Origin: an uncultured Clostridia bacterium
Lineage (GTDB): Bacteria; Bacillota; Clostridia; Oscillospirales; Ruminococcaceae
Reading direction: 5' to 3'
Assembly (NCBI GenBank): GCA_947626755.1
Contig: CANQTP010000027.1
Location: 1 to 33,424, forward strand
Length of the DNA stretch: 33,424 bases
Shown here: positions 13,382 through 21,558 of the stretch, in pieces
How positions within the stretch are numbered: position 1 is the stretch's first letter
How the letters are laid out: each line of letters begins with the position of its first letter
Program-made: the position numbers and the translations under genes
The notes under the pieces: model-generated
The model's database searches: none
What the model was told of the DNA's origin: nothing
Seen by the model: only the letters and a program-made list of their open reading frames with translations

Positions 13382-15523
13382 TTGGGTCTTACCGCCGAGT
13401 CCGTCGGGAAAAGTGCCTGCGGCGGAAACTTTGTTCTTGATATAAAGGACGGCGAGAAAGTCGTTGCCCTTGCGGGCAATCCCAATGTCGGCAAATCCAC
13501 CGTTTTCAACGCGCTGACGGGCATGAAGCAGCATACGGGCAACTGGACGGGAAAAACCGTTCAAAATGCGCAGGGACACTGCACTTCCGGGGAAAACAAT
13601 TACCTTATGGTGGATATTCCCGGAACGTATTCCCTGCTTGCGCATTCAGCCGAGGAGGAAGTTGCGCGGGATCTTATATGTTTCGGCGGAACGGACGCGG
13701 TGATCGTTGTTTGTGACGCGTCCTGCCTTGAACGCAACCTGAATCTTGTTTTGCAGACAATTGAAATTACGGAGCATACTCTTGTCTGCGTAAATCTTCT
13801 GGACGAAGCGAAAAAGAAGAAAATTTCCGTTGACCTTGAAAAACTTTCGGAAAAATTAGGAGTTCCCGTCTGCGGAACTTCCGCAAGGAGCGGCGCGGGA
13901 ATTTCGGAAATGATGGAAATGCTTCCGCAGGCGTTTTCCTTGCAAAAAAGAAATGCGCCGCCTGTTATCTATCCCGAGAAGATAGAAAACGCGCTGCGCA
14001 TTGTCGAGCCTGTTCTTGAAAAGAAACCGGGCGGAAAGCTTTCGTCCCGCTGGACGGCGCTGAGACTTCTTGACAGGGACGAGAAACTGAACGCTTCAAT
14101 AAGCGGATATGTGGGCTTTGACATTGAGACGGACGAAGAAATTTCCCACGCTGTTTCGGAAGCAAAAAAATATCTCGCCGAAAATGACATTTCCGAAACG
14201 GGATTTAAGGACATTATTGTAACTTCAATAGTTTGTCAGGCGGAGAGGATCGCGGCGGAATGCGTTGAGTTTGAAAAGCCCGATTATTACGAGCGTGACA
14301 GAAAAATAGACCGCATACTTACCCACAGGATATGGGGCGTTCCCATAATGGCGGCAATGCTGCTGCTTATCTTCTGGATAACCATTGAGGGCGCAAATTA
14401 CCCATCGGAACTGCTTTTCGGAGCGTTATTCTCACTTGGCGGAAAACTTTCGGGAATGCTTTCGGCTTGCGGCGCGCCCGAGTGGCTGAACAGTATGCTT
14501 ATTGACGGAGTGTACCGCGTTCTTGCGTGGGTAACGGCGGTAATGCTGCCGCCCATGGCGATATTTTTCCCACTGTTCACGCTTCTTGAAGATGTGGGAT
14601 ACCTGCCGCGGGTGGCGTTTGATCTTGACAGATATTTCAAAAGTTCCAACGCCTGCGGAAAGCAAGCTCTCACCATGATGATGGGCTTCGGCTGCAACGC
14701 TGCGGGAGTTACGGGCTGCCGCATAATAGATTCCCCTCGGGAACGGCTTATTGCCATACTGACAAACAGTTTTGTGCCGTGCAACGGACGTTTCCCCACG
14801 CTTATTGCGGTAATAACCATGTTCCTGACCGCGGGAACAGCAGGGTTCGGGCAGAGTTTCCTGTCGGTTCTGATACTTACGGGAGTGATAATTCTCGGCG
14901 TGATTCTGACATTCATCATGTCGAAGCTGCTTTCCTCCACAGTGCTGAAAGGCGTACCCTCGTCCTTTGCGCTGGAACTTCCGCCGTACCGTATGCCCCA
15001 GATAGGAAAGGTCATAGTCCGATCCATATTTGACAGGACAATATTTGTTTTAGGCAGAGCGGCTTCCGTTGCCGCGCCTGCGGGGCTGCTTATCTGGCTT
15101 CTGGGAAATATCCGCATTGCGGACGGTTCACTGCTTGCCGTTTGTGCGGAATTTCTTGACCCGTTTGCACGTTTCATAGGACTTGACGGAGTTATACTTC
15201 TTGCGTTCATATTGGGATTTCCCGCAAATGAAATAGTAGTTCCCATAATGCTGATGATGTATCTTTCCACGGGAAAGATCGTTGAATACGAGGATCTTGA
15301 TTCCCTGAAAAGCATACTTATCGACAACGGCTGGAACATCACGACTGCCGTTTGCATGATGATATTCATGCTTTGTCATTTTCCGTGTTCCACCACCTGC
15401 ATGACGATAAAAAAGGAAACGGGCAGCATAAAATGGACGCTGACAGCGTTCCTGCTCCCGACGGTAACGGGTGTGATACTTTGCGCCCTGACGGCAAATA
15501 TAATGCGGATATTTACGGCATGA
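13382..15523 (+). CDS. feoB: Ferrous iron transport protein B (FeoB)
   Basis: This 713-residue protein is the inner-membrane GTP-dependent Fe2+ importer. The N-terminal G domain has G1 GNPNVGKST, G3 DIPGTY, G4 NLLDEAK (NxxD) and G5 SARSG. A helical spacer domain follows, then about eight membrane helices with two Gate segments (MMGFGCNAAGVTGC and NSFVPCNGRFPT) and a Cys-rich C-terminal helix (LCHFPCSTTC). The switch I region reads GNWTGKTV instead of the common GNWPGVTV. The start is TTG at 13382, 8 bp after AAGGAG (13368-13373); the GTG at 13373 overlaps that site. No feoA gene or FeoA-like SH3 domain is present on either side, so partner genes must lie elsewhere or be missing. Confidence 0.93.
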   Translation: MGLTAESVGKSACGGNFVLDIKDGEKVVALAGNPNVGKSTVFNALTGMKQHTGNWTGKTVQNAQGHCTSGENNYLMVDIPGTYSLLAHSAEEEVARDLICFGGTDAVIVVCDASCLERNLNLVLQTIEITEHTLVCVNLLDEAKKKKISVDLEKLSEKLGVPVCGTSARSGAGISEMMEMLPQAFSLQKRNAPPVIYPEKIENALRIVEPVLEKKPGGKLSSRWTALRLLDRDEKLNASISGYVGFDIETDEEISHAVSEAKKYLAENDISETGFKDIIVTSIVCQAERIAAECVEFEKPDYYERDRKIDRILTHRIWGVPIMAAMLLLIFWITIEGANYPSELLFGALFSLGGKLSGMLSACGAPEWLNSMLIDGVYRVLAWVTAVMLPPMAIFFPLFTLLEDVGYLPRVAFDLDRYFKSSNACGKQALTMMMGFGCNAAGVTGCRIIDSPRERLIAILTNSFVPCNGRFPTLIAVITMFLTAGTAGFGQSFLSVLILTGVIILGVILTFIMSKLLSSTVLKGVPSSFALELPPYRMPQIGKVIVRSIFDRTIFVLGRAASVAAPAGLLIWLLGNIRIADGSLLAVCAEFLDPFARFIGLDGVILLAFILGFPANEIVVPIMLMMYLSTGKIVEYEDLDSLKSILIDNGWNITTAVCMMIFMLCHFPCSTTCMTIKKETGSIKWTLTAFLLPTVTGVILCALTANIMRIFTA

Positions 15524-15534
15524 AAATATGTTAA

Positions 15535-15581
15535 GAGCGCACATTTTACAATTGATATAAAATGTGCGCTCGGCTTTTTTA
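15535..15581. terminator. Bidirectional terminator after feoB
   Basis: A 14-bp perfect stem (15535-15548 with 15558-15571, GAGCGCACATTTTA and complement) with a 9-nt loop is followed by GGCTTTTTTAA, which overlaps the stop of the convergent lipoprotein gene. Confidence 0.9.
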
Positions 15582-16850
15582 ACTCTTTGCCTGCTCCGCT
15601 TCATCGGGAACAGCCGAAAACTGATTATTTGCGGGATCGTATTCATAGCCGATCTTTTTCATGGACTCGGCGATCTTCGCAGGATCGGCGTCCATATCAT
15701 CGCAGAGCGCTTCAAAATTCGGGTAAATGTCCCGCAGTTTCATGTTGAGAACGCTGAGCAGCATATACGGGTCTTTCGGAAGAGACATATCTTTTACCTC
15801 CTGTGGCTTGATTGTGATCGAAACGTAATTTCCATGAGCATCATCTTCTATCAGCTTGTCGGAATACTTTGCAATAAGCAGGGAAAGCTTCCCGAAAAGG
15901 CGATATTCTTCCGTGCCTATAACGAGCATATCAAAATTTGCCATTATGGACAGCAGATAGTCTTTCTCCCCGCGTATAACGGCAAGATCGTGAAAATTTC
16001 CGCCGTGCCAGCCGTATTTCCTTATGACTTCCGAACCTTCTCCGCCAAGTATCATAGCATTTCGGCTGTGCGTAAGATGATCTTTCAGATTTTCGGAATA
16101 GATGTTGTTTTCCTCAATAAAATCATATATTGCTTCGGATATTGTCAGAGCCGAACCGCAGCAGATCTGCGGTTGATTGAACGCTTTTGAATCGTCCTCA
16201 TGGGAAACGCCGAGTTCTTTCATGAACTCTGTGTAGCCGTCCTCGGGGAAAAGCTCCCGCAGCATTGCAAAAGCGGAATTGTCGCTTTCTTCAAGACAAT
16301 ACCCGATAAGTTCTTCAACGGTGAATTCCGTTCCCGCTTCCATATTCCTGAGTACGCCCGTGCCTTCGCGTTTGTATGCTTCGGTGTAAGTGACCTTGCG
16401 GTCCAAGTCGGCTTTTCCTTCAAGCGCAAGGCGGTAAATGTACAGCATATACGGTGCTTTCATGACCGATGCGGAGAAAAAGTGATCGTCGGGATCGATC
16501 GTAAAGGTGAACCCGCTTTCAATATCCTTATACGCAAGCGCTATGTCGTAATACAGGAAATGCGGAAATTCAGCGAATATCCCGTCAAGTTCTTCATAGA
16601 ACTCCTGCGGGAAATTGTATCTTTGTTCGGTCTTTTCGGCTGTTGTTCCGGAAATGCTTGCAGAAGTTTCGGCTGCCGATGTTGTTTCTGACACCGATGC
16701 AAGGGAGGTTTCCGTCTGCGGCGTATCCGTAACGGAAATATCCTCATATACATATACGGTTTCCGACTCCGTAATATACGGTTCGGTATCCGCTTTGCAG
16801 CCGCAGAGCATTGCAAGAGCCAATGCTGCGGATATAAAACTTCTGCGCAT
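15579..16850 (-). CDS. Lipoprotein with class A beta-lactamase-like serine hydrolase domain
   Basis: This is a 423-residue surface lipoprotein. It has a basic start (MRRSF), a hydrophobic stretch and lipobox LCGC with Cys18. A Ser/Thr/Glu-rich linker follows (about 19-75) and then a Beta-lactamase2-type domain (about 85-350). The active-site serine motif Ser128-Val-Met-Lys131 and Ser189-Asp-Asn191 are present. The third motif reads Lys278-Tyr-Gly280 instead of KTG, as part of KYGWHGGNFHD. Such domains occur in D,D-peptidases, beta-lactamases and esterases, so I do not call it a resistance gene. Residues 350-423 are an extra C-terminal tail. The start at 16850 follows AAAGGAAG 11 bp upstream; a longer frame to 16889 overlaps the promoter. 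It is 63 bp behind the SOS-type gene on the same strand, with no terminator between. Confidence 0.85.
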   Translation of the reverse strand: MRRSFISAALALAMLCGCKADTEPYITESETVYVYEDISVTDTPQTETSLASVSETTSAAETSASISGTTAEKTEQRYNFPQEFYEELDGIFAEFPHFLYYDIALAYKDIESGFTFTIDPDDHFFSASVMKAPYMLYIYRLALEGKADLDRKVTYTEAYKREGTGVLRNMEAGTEFTVEELIGYCLEESDNSAFAMLRELFPEDGYTEFMKELGVSHEDDSKAFNQPQICCGSALTISEAIYDFIEENNIYSENLKDHLTHSRNAMILGGEGSEVIRKYGWHGGNFHDLAVIRGEKDYLLSIMANFDMLVIGTEEYRLFGKLSLLIAKYSDKLIEDDAHGNYVSITIKPQEVKDMSLPKDPYMLLSVLNMKLRDIYPNFEALCDDMDADPAKIAESMKKIGYEYDPANNQFSAVPDEAEQAKS

Positions 16851-16888
16851 GATGCGTAAGACTTCCTTTCGGTGCAATTGTATCCACA

Positions 16889-16917
16889 ATTATACCACAC
16901 AAACGCTTCTGGGTCAA
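16889..16917 (-). promoter_or_regulatory. Sigma-A promoter for the serine-hydrolase lipoprotein
   Basis: On the minus strand there is a -35 TTGACC (16912-16917), a 17-bp spacer and a -10 TATAAT (16889-16894). The -35 overlaps the stop codon of the upstream small gene. Confidence 0.85.
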
Positions 16918-17171
16918 GATTTACTTTGCGTTTTTTCCGAAAATATTCCGAAATCCATTATTTTTTCCTTGGAAAAGACGGCGGCAAGCGCCATAGGAGC
17001 AAGCACAGCGGCTGCGGAAAGTTCACCGCCCACCGTTACCATGAAAACTATCACCGCAAGCATCATCAAGCCTGCGATCTTTTGCGGCAGAAGTTTATTT
17101 CTCCTTGAAATACGGGTCATTACTATTTCTTTCTTTTCCGTATCGATTATTTTTGCGGCAGATCCCTGCAT
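16914..17171 (-). CDS. Small membrane protein with SOS-type (LexA) promoter
   Basis: This 85-residue protein has a basic N-terminal half (TRISRRNKLLPQK, about 19-31) and two adjacent hydrophobic helices (about 32-48 and 51-66), ending in a short charged tail. It is not YneA-like, as there is no LysM domain, and I know no characterised homologue. The ATG at 17171 has AAAGGAAG (17178-17185) six bases upstream. A consensus promoter holds a LexA box in its spacer, which predicts DNA-damage induction. A small SOS-induced membrane protein could act in division arrest or envelope stress, but that is speculation. The lipoprotein gene follows on the same strand. Confidence 0.7.
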   Translation of the reverse strand: MQGSAAKIIDTEKKEIVMTRISRRNKLLPQKIAGLMMLAVIVFMVTVGGELSAAAVLAPMALAAVFSKEKIMDFGIFSEKTQSKS

Positions 17172-17191
17172 ATATATCTTCCTTTCTTTTT

Positions 17192-17252
17192 AGCACGTTT
17201 GTTCTGAACATTCGTTTTATTTTATTATAAAACACTTGTTCGCGTTTGTCAA
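17192..17252 (-). promoter_or_regulatory. Consensus sigma-A promoter with LexA (SOS) box cluster
   Basis: The minus-strand promoter is perfect: TTGACA (17247-17252), a 17-bp spacer and TATAAT (17224-17229). Inside the spacer CGAACAAGTGTTTT (17229-17242) matches the Bacillus LexA/DinR box CGAACRNRYGTTYC at 13 of 14 positions. Two weaker, adjacent matches (11 of 14 each) follow: AAAACGAATGTTCA (17205-17218, over the start site) and AGAACAAACGTGCT (17192-17205). Repressor binding here would block RNA polymerase. Confidence 0.75.
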
Positions 17253-17304
17253 GGGAATTTGAAAAAATTTGTTCGGGTAATTCTGCACAAAAATTGCGCA
17301 AAAT

Positions 17305-17352
17305 TTTCTGCAAAATAAACAGTCCGTCGGGAATTTCCGGCGGACTGTTTAT
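17305..17352 (-). terminator. Terminator after the dehydratase-subunit gene
   Basis: A 12-bp stem (17315-17326 with 17341-17352, ATAAACAGTCCG/CGGACTGTTTAT) is extended by an inner CGG/CCG pair. On the minus strand it is followed by TTGCAG after a TTTATTT run. It overlaps the stop codon of the gene ending at 17352. Confidence 0.8.
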
Positions 17353-18572
17353 CATTTTCTTGCATTGGCAAGCATGAGTTTTATTCGGTTTTCCTGATTT
17401 ACACGAGTTGCGCCGGGATCGTAATCCACCGCAACGATATTTGCCTGCGGGAACGCTTCCTTTATCACCCGGGACATTCCCTTGGCGACAATGTGATTCG
17501 GCAGACAACCGAAAGGCTGTGTGCAGATGATATTTTCCACTCCGCCGTGGGCAAGGGCAGCCATTTCCGCGGGGATCAGCCAGCCCTCCCCCATTTTAAC
17601 GCCTTGGTGCATATATTTGTCCGCATAATGCCGCAGATCCTCAAAATCGTGGGGCGGGTCGAACTCGCCGTGCTCCTTCACAACGGCAATAAGCTGCTTC
17701 TGCATATGGTAAATAAGCTTGTAGGCTATCCCGAAAATTTTCGTTGTGCTGTTGCTGAAATTGTATATTTTCCCGTCGTTTACCGTGTTCACCGCACAAT
17801 ACAGGCAGAAATCCAGAAACGCAGGAACTACAGGTTCGCAGCCCTCTGATATGAGAAAATCTTCCAGATGATTATTTGCTAACGGAGAATATTTTACATA
17901 AATTTCCCCGACAATGCCCACGCGTATCTTCTTTTCCTTTGAACGTTCCACCGCGGAGAAATCCGCAAGGATCTCCCGATAAATTTTCTTTGTCCGTCTG
18001 TAGCCGCCTTTTGAGAACATCTCCGCGATCTTCTTCTGCCACTTTTCCAGAACGGCTTTGCTGTCGCCCTTGTGAATTTCATATGCCCGACAGGTGTTGT
18101 AAAGGCTCATCAAAAGGTCGCCGTAAAGCACGGCGTAAAGCATTTGCAGGAACATTCCCGCAGTTATGCTGAACCCGCTGTCCTTTTCCAGACCGCTGAA
18201 ATTAAGCGACAGAACGGGTATCTGCGGAAATTCCTCGTCCAGCGCTTTCCGAAGCAGGTGGATATAGTTTGAAGCGCGGCAGCCGCCGCCTGTCTGCGAA
18301 ATAAGCAGTGCGGTCTTGTCAGGATCGTACTTTCCGCTTTTCAGCGCGTCAATGAATTGTCCGATAACAAGCAAAGCGGGGTAACAGGTGTCGTTGTGGA
18401 CGTGCTTCAATCCCTCGTCCACAACATTCCGCGTGGAAGTGGTAAGAAGCTCCATTTTATAGCCGTTATTCCGGAAGATCTCCATTATCAGTCCGAAATG
18501 TATCGGCAGCATATCCGGAATGAGTATTGTGTGGGTCTGTTTCATTTCCGGCGTAAAAACAGCATTTGACAA
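17352..18572 (-). CDS. 2-hydroxyacyl-CoA dehydratase-like (HgdB/COG3581-type) subunit
   Basis: This 406-residue protein corresponds to the C-terminal part of the large (about 1400-residue) BadF/HgdB proteins of Firmicutes. Conserved Cys residues that could hold an iron-sulfur cluster are visible in HNDTCYPALL (about residue 63), TGGGCRASNY (about 98), FCLYCAV and CTQPFGCLPNH. The last is a hallmark of this family. The start is TTG at 18572, 8 bp after AAAGGACAG. The gene follows the two-ATPase activase gene by 61 bp with no terminator, so the pair forms one operon. Physiological substrate is unknown; these large proteins are not the classical fermentation dehydratases. Confidence 0.85.
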   Translation of the reverse strand: MSNAVFTPEMKQTHTILIPDMLPIHFGLIMEIFRNNGYKMELLTTSTRNVVDEGLKHVHNDTCYPALLVIGQFIDALKSGKYDPDKTALLISQTGGGCRASNYIHLLRKALDEEFPQIPVLSLNFSGLEKDSGFSITAGMFLQMLYAVLYGDLLMSLYNTCRAYEIHKGDSKAVLEKWQKKIAEMFSKGGYRRTKKIYREILADFSAVERSKEKKIRVGIVGEIYVKYSPLANNHLEDFLISEGCEPVVPAFLDFCLYCAVNTVNDGKIYNFSNSTTKIFGIAYKLIYHMQKQLIAVVKEHGEFDPPHDFEDLRHYADKYMHQGVKMGEGWLIPAEMAALAHGGVENIICTQPFGCLPNHIVAKGMSRVIKEAFPQANIVAVDYDPGATRVNQENRIKLMLANARK

Positions 18573-18633
18573 TATGATTACTGTCCTTTCTTTTAAACTA
18601 TAAGTAATTTATTTTGCTATATTTACAAAATGT

Positions 18634-21558
18634 TTATTTCCCCATGGCGGCAACAAGGCTGCGGAGACGTATCTTAGCCGCGCCGAGGTTGTTTATCTCG
18701 TCTATTTTCAGCTGTGTGTAAAGCTTTCCGCCGCTTTCGAGGATAGAACGCACTTCGTCTGTAGTGATGGCGTCAATTCCGCAGCCGAAAGACACAAGCT
18801 GAACGAGCTGCATATCAGGCTGTGTGGTAACGTACTTAGCCGCACGGTACAAGCGAGAATGATAAGTCCACTGGTTCAGAACGTGGAGAGTAGGCGTTTC
18901 CGCAAGGTGCGCAACGCTGTCCTCGGTGATAACCGCAAGTCCCAGACCTGTGATAAGCTTCTGTATGCCGTGGTTGATCTCGGGGTCGATGTGGTACGGA
19001 CGTCCCGAAAGTACGATTATAGGCATTTTCTGCTCACGGGCTTTTCGGATTATCTCTTCGCCCTTTTTGATAACGTCTTTGCGGTAGCTTTCAAGGGCGT
19101 CCATGGACTTTTTCCATACGTCTTTTGCCTGTTTCTTGGTAACGCCGTACTTTTCCAGAGCCTTGCTCATGGCTTCCCCGAAATGCTTTTCAAGATTTAT
19201 GTCGATATAAGGGTGAATGAAATTTTCATCATTAAGAACGGGAACATTGGCTTTCAGAAGTTCGGGATAATATGCAACAACGGGGCAGTTATAATGGTTA
19301 TCGCTGCCGCCCTCATCAACGTTGTAGCTTTCGCAGGGGTAGAATATGAAGTCCGCGCCCCGCTCGAAAAGGCTTAAAATATGTCCGTGGGCAAGTTTTG
19401 CGGGATAACATACCGTATCCGATGGAATGGTGTGCTGTCCTTTGTAATATGTGCCGCGGGTGCTTTCCTCGCTGATAACAACTTCAAATCCAAGTTCCGT
19501 AAATGCTTTGTGCCAGAACGGCAGCTGCTCATAAAATCCCAGACAAAGGGGAAGTCCCACTTTTGCCTTGGGTGAGGAGGGCTTTTCACGGACAACGCCG
19601 AGAAGCCTGTCATATTTGTATTCGTAAAGGCAGAGCCGTTCCTTGTTGGTCTGAAGTCCCGCGCCCCGCTCGCAGCGGTTTCCGCTGACAAATTTGTGAC
19701 CGTCTCCGAAGCTGATTATTGTCAGGCTGCAATGTGCCGTACAGCCGTTGCAGTTTGCTTGCCTGGAAACATATGTAAATTTTGCAAGCTGTTCTTCGGT
19801 AATAAGCGTGGAATTCTCCGTTCTGTGTTCCATGGCGTAAAGTGCGCAGCCGAACGCTCCCATAAGTCCTGCAATGGCAGGGCGGGTAACATTTCTGCCA
19901 AGTTCCATTTCAAAGGAACGCAGAACTGCGTCATTAAGGAATGTTCCGCCTTGTACGACAATGTGTGTACCAAGCTCGTCCACTGATTTCGCACGGATTA
20001 CCTTGTAAATGGCGTTCTTGATGATAGAAGCGGACAGCCCTGCGGAAATATCCTCCACGGAAGCGCCGTCTTTCTGCGCCTGTTTTACCGAACTGTTCAT
20101 GAAAACTGTGCAGCGGGAACCGAGATCGACGGGTTTTTCCGCAAAAAGTCCAAGCTGGGAAAATTCCGCAATATCATATCCCAATGCAAGGGCAAATGTC
20201 TGGATAAACGAGCCGCAGCCCGAGGAACAGGCTTCATTCAGCATAATGCTGTCGATAGCCTTGTTTTTTATCTTAAAGCACTTGATGTCCTGACCGCCTA
20301 TGTCGATAATGAAATCCACATCGGGTTCAAAGAAACTTGCGGCTTTGTAGTGAGCGACAGTTTCGACAATGCCGTGATCTATGCCGAGACCTGCTTTTAT
20401 CAGGTCCTCGCCGTAACCCGTTACAGCGGAAGAAACTATCTTTATCCTGTCCCCCGCGAGAGTGTATATCTCTTTCAGCTTTTCGGAAATAATGTCAAGT
20501 GGTCTGCCCATGCTGGAGCAGTAATGCTGATACAGAAGTTCGCCTTTCGGGGTTATGAGAACAAGTTTTGTGGTGGTAGAGCCCGCGTCAATGCCAAGAT
20601 AGGCTTCGCCGCTATACTTGGAAATATCCGCGTATTTCAGATCACATTCCTTGTGGCGTTCCACGAACTTGTTATATTCTTCCCTGGAAGTAAACAGCGG
20701 TTTTCCCGTGACAATATCGTCTTTCATCTTTGCATTTTTCAGGCGTTCGGTAATTTCGTCAATTTTCATGGGTTCACTGTTGTCCTTTGCGTAAAGCGCG
20801 CAGCCGAACGCCATAAAGCATGGCGCGTTTTCGGGGAAAATTGCATTTTCCTCCGAAAGTTTCAGAGTATTTACAAATGCTTTCCGCAAGCCTTTCTGGA
20901 ATGACAGCGGTCCGCCGAGGAAAAGAACTTTTCCCTCAACGGTACGTCCCTGAGCAAGTCCCGAAACGGTCTGATCCACAACAGCCTGAAATATGGAAGC
21001 GGCAATATCCTCACGTTTTGCGCCCTGATTAAGCAGCGGTTGAATGTCGGATTTTGCGAAAACGCCGCAGCGGGAAGCGATAGGATAGACTTTTTCCGCA
21101 TTTAAAGCAAGTCTGTCAAGCTCGTCCGTAGTGATTCCCAGAAGCGTAGCCATCTGATCTATGAATGCACCCGTTCCGCCTGCGCAGGAACCGTTCATTC
21201 GCTGTTCCACGCCGCCTGTCAGGAAAATTATCTTTGCGTCCTCGCCGCCAAGTTCTATAACAACGTCCGCATCGGGGTAGCTGTGGTTTACGGCAATAAA
21301 CGCGCCGAAAACTTCCTGAACGAAGGGAAGTCCCGCGGCGTTGGCAAGTCCCAGTCCCGCCGAACCCGTAATACTCAGGCGGAATTCGCAGTCGGAAAAT
21401 TTCTGCGCAATATCCGAAAGCTGTTCCGCAACGGTCTCGCGGACTTTCGAGAAATGCCGCTGATAACAGGAATGTATAATATTGCAGTCCTCATCAAGTA
21501 TGACCGTCTTTACCGTTGTTGAACCAACGTCGATACCAAGTGAATATACTTTACTCAT
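18634..21558 (-). CDS. Double-domain acyl-CoA dehydratase activase-like ATPase (BadF/BadG, COG1924) with DUF2229
   Basis: This 974-residue protein has two ASKHA-fold activase domains. The first (about 1-280) starts GIDVGSTTVK and has GSCAGGTGAF. The second (about 320-590) has GIDAGSTTTK and CSSGCGSF. Their Cys residues match the positions where dehydratase activases bind a bridging [4Fe-4S] cluster. A Cys-rich segment follows (CNGCTAHCSL, about 605-640), and then a DUF2229/COG3580 domain (about 665-960, with SDTVCYPAKLAHGH). Activases use ATP hydrolysis to drive one-electron transfer to a dehydratase-type partner, probably the protein encoded just downstream. In many relatives both genes are one open reading frame of about 1400 residues; here it is split. 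The start ATG at 21558 has AAAGGG nearby. The MITE-like palindrome lies directly upstream. Confidence 0.9.
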   Translation of the reverse strand: MSKVYSLGIDVGSTTVKTVILDEDCNIIHSCYQRHFSKVRETVAEQLSDIAQKFSDCEFRLSITGSAGLGLANAAGLPFVQEVFGAFIAVNHSYPDADVVIELGGEDAKIIFLTGGVEQRMNGSCAGGTGAFIDQMATLLGITTDELDRLALNAEKVYPIASRCGVFAKSDIQPLLNQGAKREDIAASIFQAVVDQTVSGLAQGRTVEGKVLFLGGPLSFQKGLRKAFVNTLKLSEENAIFPENAPCFMAFGCALYAKDNSEPMKIDEITERLKNAKMKDDIVTGKPLFTSREEYNKFVERHKECDLKYADISKYSGEAYLGIDAGSTTTKLVLITPKGELLYQHYCSSMGRPLDIISEKLKEIYTLAGDRIKIVSSAVTGYGEDLIKAGLGIDHGIVETVAHYKAASFFEPDVDFIIDIGGQDIKCFKIKNKAIDSIMLNEACSSGCGSFIQTFALALGYDIAEFSQLGLFAEKPVDLGSRCTVFMNSSVKQAQKDGASVEDISAGLSASIIKNAIYKVIRAKSVDELGTHIVVQGGTFLNDAVLRSFEMELGRNVTRPAIAGLMGAFGCALYAMEHRTENSTLITEEQLAKFTYVSRQANCNGCTAHCSLTIISFGDGHKFVSGNRCERGAGLQTNKERLCLYEYKYDRLLGVVREKPSSPKAKVGLPLCLGFYEQLPFWHKAFTELGFEVVISEESTRGTYYKGQHTIPSDTVCYPAKLAHGHILSLFERGADFIFYPCESYNVDEGGSDNHYNCPVVAYYPELLKANVPVLNDENFIHPYIDINLEKHFGEAMSKALEKYGVTKKQAKDVWKKSMDALESYRKDVIKKGEEIIRKAREQKMPIIVLSGRPYHIDPEINHGIQKLITGLGLAVITEDSVAHLAETPTLHVLNQWTYHSRLYRAAKYVTTQPDMQLVQLVSFGCGIDAITTDEVRSILESGGKLYTQLKIDEINNLGAAKIRLRSLVAAMGK

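Follow-up and report, generated by a model that had tools for sequence, protein, structure and literature searches.

Organization of the locus

The locus lies on the minus strand of a 33,424-nucleotide window (the whole stretch of DNA that was analysed) from an uncultured Clostridia bacterium. An open reading frame at 16914..17171 (ATG at 17171, stop codon 16916-16914), preceded by the Shine-Dalgarno-like GAAAGGAAGA, encodes an 85-residue protein with two predicted membrane helices. Its sigma-70-type promoter, TTGACA-17-TATAAT at 17224..17252, matches all 12 consensus positions (-35 TTGACA, 17252-17247; -10 TATAAT, 17229-17224), and the spacer holds a LexA-type box whose 14-base form, CGAACAAGTGTTTT (17242-17229), contains the core GAACAAGTGTTT (17230..17241) with 7/8 core positions matched. 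Two more LexA-type boxes follow on the same strand downstream of the -10 element, AAACGAATGTTC (17206..17217) and, 13 bp past it, GAACAAACGTGC (17193..17204), each likewise matching 7/8 core positions.

The LexA box consensus of Bacillus subtilis is CGAACRNRYGTTYC; by hand count the spacer box agrees with this form at 13 of 14 positions and the two downstream boxes at 11 of 14 each. These counts equal those of an initial annotation of this DNA, and its description of a perfect promoter with one LexA-type box in the spacer and two beyond it, serving an 85-residue two-helix membrane protein, was recovered on re-reading the minus strand. The box core GAACN4GTTC is quoted in PMC4234289. A weak box-like site farther upstream, GAACAAATTTTT (17263..17274, minus strand; 6/8), is tentative; for 10 of the 17 orthologues described below, the highest-scoring upstream site is one of 6-7/8 at this distance (-21/-22).

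The next gene on the minus strand (15579..16889, from a TTG at 16889) encodes a lipoprotein with Beta-lactamase2 and DUF4250 domains (Pfam), which we do not count as part of the system. Read from a later ATG, near 16850, the lipoprotein has 423 residues, and 64 bases separate the small gene from that start. The lipoprotein gene has its own promoter, TTGACC-17-TATAAT (16889..16917, minus strand; 11/12 consensus positions), whose -35 element overlaps the stop codon of the small gene. As first annotated, the lipoprotein gene comes next on the same strand, and nothing resembling a terminator was seen between it and the small gene.

Conservation of the gene and its promoter

The small gene is present in 17 of the 21 genomes of the genus, the window's own included, and in 9 of the 10 with completeness of 90% or more and contamination of 5% or less. 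The four genomes without it are G016 (96% complete) and three others that are 55-78% complete; two weak matches in G019 (L019 and L020) were left out. Within the genus the orthologues are 44-60% identical to the window protein. The TTGACA-17-TATAAT promoter is kept in all 17, together with a spacer box of 7-8/8 and a downstream pair of 6-8/8 exactly 13 bp apart, so that boxes and small reading frame are conserved as one arrangement across the genus members.

The specificity of this arrangement was assessed in 372,690 control bases, made up of the loci around the small gene and those retrieved by the recA and lexA searches. These contain 58 promoters with a 17-bp spacer and no more than one deviation from consensus. 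Scored in a fixed register, the 17 promoters of the small gene reach 7-8/8 for the box, versus at most 5/8 for the other 41; the control is informative on those other promoters only, since many loci were picked for holding the small gene. The bare GAAC-N4-GTTC word occurs at 50 places in the 3.3-Mb genome, versus 140 for the reversed control word, and a single occurrence therefore means little (surroundings were inspected for 15 of the 50 places, picked by eye, and for three one-off places). What exceeds chance is the placement and conservation of the boxes, not the bare word.

Fourteen relatives were found in named records, all of them metagenome-assembled genomes of uncultured Clostridia, Oscillospiraceae or Ruminococcus; the titles point to the gut of goat, roe deer and water deer, and 'Lapin' in a title suggests rabbit. 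A profile search of 396 genomes of the family gave 13 matches at E <= 0.001: six from the genus itself, five from sister genera (G429 of g185; G587, G636, G679 and G717 of g14), and two unrelated proteins without a box (G503 and G647), which were dropped. The five sister-genus homologues are only 21-27% identical to the window protein. The promoter is kept in all five with a spacer box of 6-7/8, and the 13-bp pair in four, G429 lacking it.

A search of 197 family genomes with the promoter alone found matches in 26. In one of these, G337 (g14), a promoter with one mismatch to the pattern and a box pair precede a further member of the family, which is absent from the matches of the profile search although G337 was in its sample. 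The promoter thus predicted the protein in one case; other promoters from this search front other genes. Together, the six diverged members from the two sister genera retain the promoter in 6/6 and the box pair in 5/6.

At the level of the order (394 genomes), six weak matches to the protein had no credible box within 400 bases upstream when scanned with one pattern; for one of them, L130, AAACTGAGGTTT lies within the preceding reading frame. Two of these six, the distant look-alikes L131 and L129, align with the family profile at hhalign probabilities of 96 and 92. GTTCTATAAT with tandem boxes behind it was searched for throughout the order and turned up in 6 of the 394 genomes, corresponding to five Y-family polymerase genes (assigned by eye) and one phage-type regulator, and no further small membrane protein was found in this position.

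The probable regulator

The genome encodes a LexA (TIGR00498, with an S24 domain). Across the genus, all 18 recA loci examined have GAA(A/T)-N4-GTTC, a 7/8 box (recA was matched in 19 genomes; five recA rows, L192 and L194-L197, and one lexA row, L217, were left out as partial or weak), and in a sister genus (G515) GAACGTTTGTAC lies in the promoter spacer of a recA. Within the genome studied here (G000), GAACAATTGTTC precedes a small reading frame together with a Y-family polymerase gene, another Y-family gene carries a one-off version, and a 7/8 one-off box, GAACATTCGTTT, lies just upstream of a putative repair radical-SAM gene (TIGR03916; L113 on contig C11). In relatives, too, Y-family polymerase genes have the box in their promoter spacers (L166 by Pfam, others by eye; the Pfam IMS model matched L115, L125 and L166). 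Since recA and the Y-family polymerase genes have the same or a one-off box, control of the small gene by LexA, as initially annotated, is very likely.

The same annotation had named the recA and lexA promoters, and conservation upstream of orthologues, as checks on this box. It is conserved upstream of the orthologues, as described above, and is present at recA in a one-off version, but the best site within 250 bases of lexA scores only 4-6/8 in all 20 genus loci (L051, L198-L216). In each of these loci lexA sits directly behind murC, with a gap of 15-42 bases and of 262 in one. As no box exceeds 6/8 in the 250 bases scanned, autoregulation from within this stretch seems to be absent. The small gene is not adjacent to lexA in this genome, being on contig C27 and lexA on contig C12.

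Other LexA-type sites were seen in the lineage. In genus g245 (L155 1512-1803, and L174), tandem LexA-type boxes precede a protein of 76-78 residues that is hydrophobic by eye. This protein resembles that of the window in its size, hydrophobicity and position behind tandem boxes, and comes from the same family of genomes, but it is unrelated in sequence (hhalign probability 0.4%). Elsewhere in G000 (C2:14603-14673; L127, L234), a 136-residue phage-type transcription regulator (phrog_36) is preceded by three perfect GAAC-N4-GTTC boxes at intervals of 33 and 26 bases, a spacing much like that at the small gene. In G018 a LexA-type promoter site is common to two divergent reading frames of 327 and 439 residues, DUF262-type by eye (L101), and in G551 GAAC-N4-GTGC promoter sites lie before relaxase-like and serine-recombinase-like genes, both assigned by eye (L152, L172).

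The 85-residue protein

An AlphaFold2 model based on 22 family members predicts helices at residues 28-48 and 51-66; the model is modest (mean pLDDT 71.8, pTM 0.49), with a block of pLDDT 82-89 over residues 31-70. In these 22 members the first 31 aligned residues contain 5-12 lysines or arginines and the loop between the helices 0-1. Given this charge pattern and the positive-inside rule, which we used to assign topology, both termini are probably cytoplasmic and the protein would form a two-helix hairpin with a basic N-terminus. Q30, G34 and P59 are invariant in the 22 members. Close pairs are under purifying selection: dS is below 1 in 11 pairs, nine of which have a dN/dS of 0.19-0.29, and L003-L004 and L003-L016 reach 0.63 and 0.67. 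The pairs used are among the 14 least diverged of 136, most of which are saturated.

Nothing credible was matched by the protein family in Pfam, PHROGs, PADLOC, PDB sequences or, for the two members scanned, NCBIfam. With 17 members, Pfam gave no credible family, and LysM was not among the families matched; the vertebrate Podoplanin model matched two members (best E 0.00027), which was taken as chance, and all other matches had E 0.014 or weaker. PHROGs returned twelve matches for the same 17 members, each to a single member (best E 0.046), and PADLOC two single-member matches for 22 members (E 0.012 and 0.015). NCBIfam gave no credible match for the window protein and one sister-genus member, and the family profile none among PDB sequences to E 10. 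The best Foldseek result, E 7 to pieces of pilins, is uninformative, and no Rfam family reached its gathering score within 15000-19000.

Origin from a phage or plasmid was considered and set aside as far as direct similarity goes, as neither the 17-member alignment against viral contigs nor the window protein against phages and plasmids found a relative; the distant look-alike L129 had no match in phages, plasmids or viral contigs either. Our searches of the open-licence literature turned up neither a description of the family nor, for Oscillospiraceae, an SOS division inhibitor.

Proposed function

We propose that the small gene is a LexA-repressed, DNA-damage-induced single gene that would act as the SOS division checkpoint of this lineage by blocking septation, and we place the probability of this reading at about 0.5. 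In the undamaged cell, LexA bound to the spacer box and to the two downstream boxes would keep a promoter of consensus strength switched off. After damage, RecA would trigger self-cleavage of LexA and transcription of the small gene would rise. The 85-residue hairpin, with its basic N-terminus and both ends probably in the cytoplasm, would then enter the membrane and bind the septal wall-synthesis complex there (FtsW or its partners), so that septation would be delayed until repair is done. A consensus promoter under several operators fits a product that must stay silent until damage occurs. Against this explanation stand the absence of the small gene from 4 of the 21 genus genomes, one of them 96% complete, the missing box within 250 bases of lexA and the one-base difference at the genus recA, the lack of a credible box at distant look-alikes in other families, the higher dN/dS of two of the 11 least diverged pairs, the modest confidence of the structural model, and the contrasts with described inhibitors given below.

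PMC6851548 portrays the SOS division inhibitors of Gram-positive bacteria as small membrane proteins that share little homology, and those described have one transmembrane segment, an extracellular C-terminus and usually a place beside lexA. Sections of PMC13396833 propose FtsW binding through a transmembrane helix as a shared mechanism: YneA is described there as binding FtsW through its transmembrane segment, blocking septal wall synthesis and needing LysM for inhibition, and SosA, ChiZ and SidA are placed on FtsW by models that the authors rate as not of high confidence. YneA of Bacillus subtilis and ChiZ are SOS-induced small membrane proteins, as the window protein presumably is, but they have one transmembrane segment, an extracellular LysM and a place beside lexA, whereas the window protein has two predicted helices, no LysM, and lexA elsewhere; the family searches showed no sequence relation to either. 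Closer in form is SosA of Staphylococcus aureus, which is 77 residues long, LexA-controlled, free of LysM and conserved in staphylococci (PMC6851548, in part). SosA differs in its single predicted transmembrane segment, its gene divergent from lexA and its extracellular C-terminus, whereas the charge pattern of the window protein suggests, as a prediction, that its C-terminus is cytoplasmic. SidA and DidA of Caulobacter are small membrane proteins that contact FtsW or FtsN after DNA damage (PMC13396833, in part), but belong to another phylum, and DidA is SOS-independent (PMC4211646).

The initial annotation had suggested that SOS read-through could link DNA damage to remodelling of the wall by way of the beta-lactamase-like lipoprotein. 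The shared strand, the 64-base distance from the ATG start and the lack of a recognizable terminator would allow read-through, and the next same-strand gene is lipoprotein-like by eye in 5 of 17 loci (the window's, L055 and L057-L059). These five comprise the lipoprotein of the window, a VanY D,D-carboxypeptidase in G004 and mutually similar proteins in G003, G006 and G011, but they fall into three groups without BLAST similarity between them. The whole lipoprotein is downstream of the small gene in none of the 16 other orthologous loci, judged from the sequence retrieved around each; at the corresponding place G019 matches DUF4250 alone, and in G018 a homologue lies on the opposite strand, some 2.4 kb off. 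Reading frames downstream were called crudely, and some contigs stop nearby; as far as these calls go, neighbours vary, some being common to close relatives (downstream in G002 and G010) and not to distant ones. Because neighbours vary except among close relatives, we take the unit to be the promoter and one small gene. Transcription may possibly continue into the lipoprotein gene, although not as a conserved design; with its 11-of-12 promoter and no conserved adjacency, we reject an SOS-lipoprotein operon and rate damage-driven wall remodelling through it as very improbable. About as improbable is the reading that the boxes are LexA-like sites of another repressor, with the gene answering to a signal other than DNA damage. 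The missing box near lexA and the one-base difference at the genus recA could be read in this way, but the same GAAC-N4-GTTC/GTGC box also fronts, in the family and the order, both recA and Y-family polymerase genes, all of them classic SOS genes.

Two further readings assign the product another role. TisB is about 29 residues long and controlled by an antisense RNA, and class II holins sit with lysis genes; both resemble the window protein in being small, tightly controlled membrane proteins of hairpin or amphipathic form. An SOS-induced hairpin could act as a pore or depolarising toxin that lowers the membrane potential, leading to dormancy in the manner of TisB or to lysis in the manner of a holin, and both the predicted two-helix form with its basic N-terminus and the multi-operator control would suit a toxic product. 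We nevertheless regard this as unlikely, as 85 residues far exceed TisB and neither an antisense RNA (in one Rfam scan) nor a lysis-gene context was seen at the small gene. Of the features of a class II holin the hairpin is predicted, but the neighbours vary, no lysis gene was recognized by eye among the adjacent reading frames (crude calls, most without a family scan), the PHROGs matches are confined to single members, and no relative was found in viral contigs, phages or plasmids. Somewhat less plausible is a product that assists repair from the membrane, or a gene domesticated from a mobile element, in neither case acting directly on division. The look-alikes L129 and L131, which occur in other families without credible boxes, speak for this reading, but no repair or mobile gene recurs as a conserved neighbour by eye, and the search with the look-alike retrieved nothing from phages, plasmids or viral contigs.

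If the checkpoint reading is correct, the protein might represent a new architectural class, namely a two-helix hairpin SOS checkpoint with no extracellular domain and a locus independent of lexA, in which intramembrane contact alone would stop septal wall synthesis. This extension, which would also entail repeated invention in Oscillospiraceae genera of small membrane proteins under tandem LexA operators (at least two unrelated ones, this protein and that of g245), is tentative and we consider it rather doubtful as a whole.

For these gut commensals, we found no SOS division checkpoint in the open-licence literature. The promoter has stayed static while the protein has diverged to below 30% identity, and it provides a sequence handle on SOS effectors. 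A two-helix inhibitor without LysM, if that is what the small gene encodes, would test whether intramembrane contact with the septal synthase suffices to stop division.
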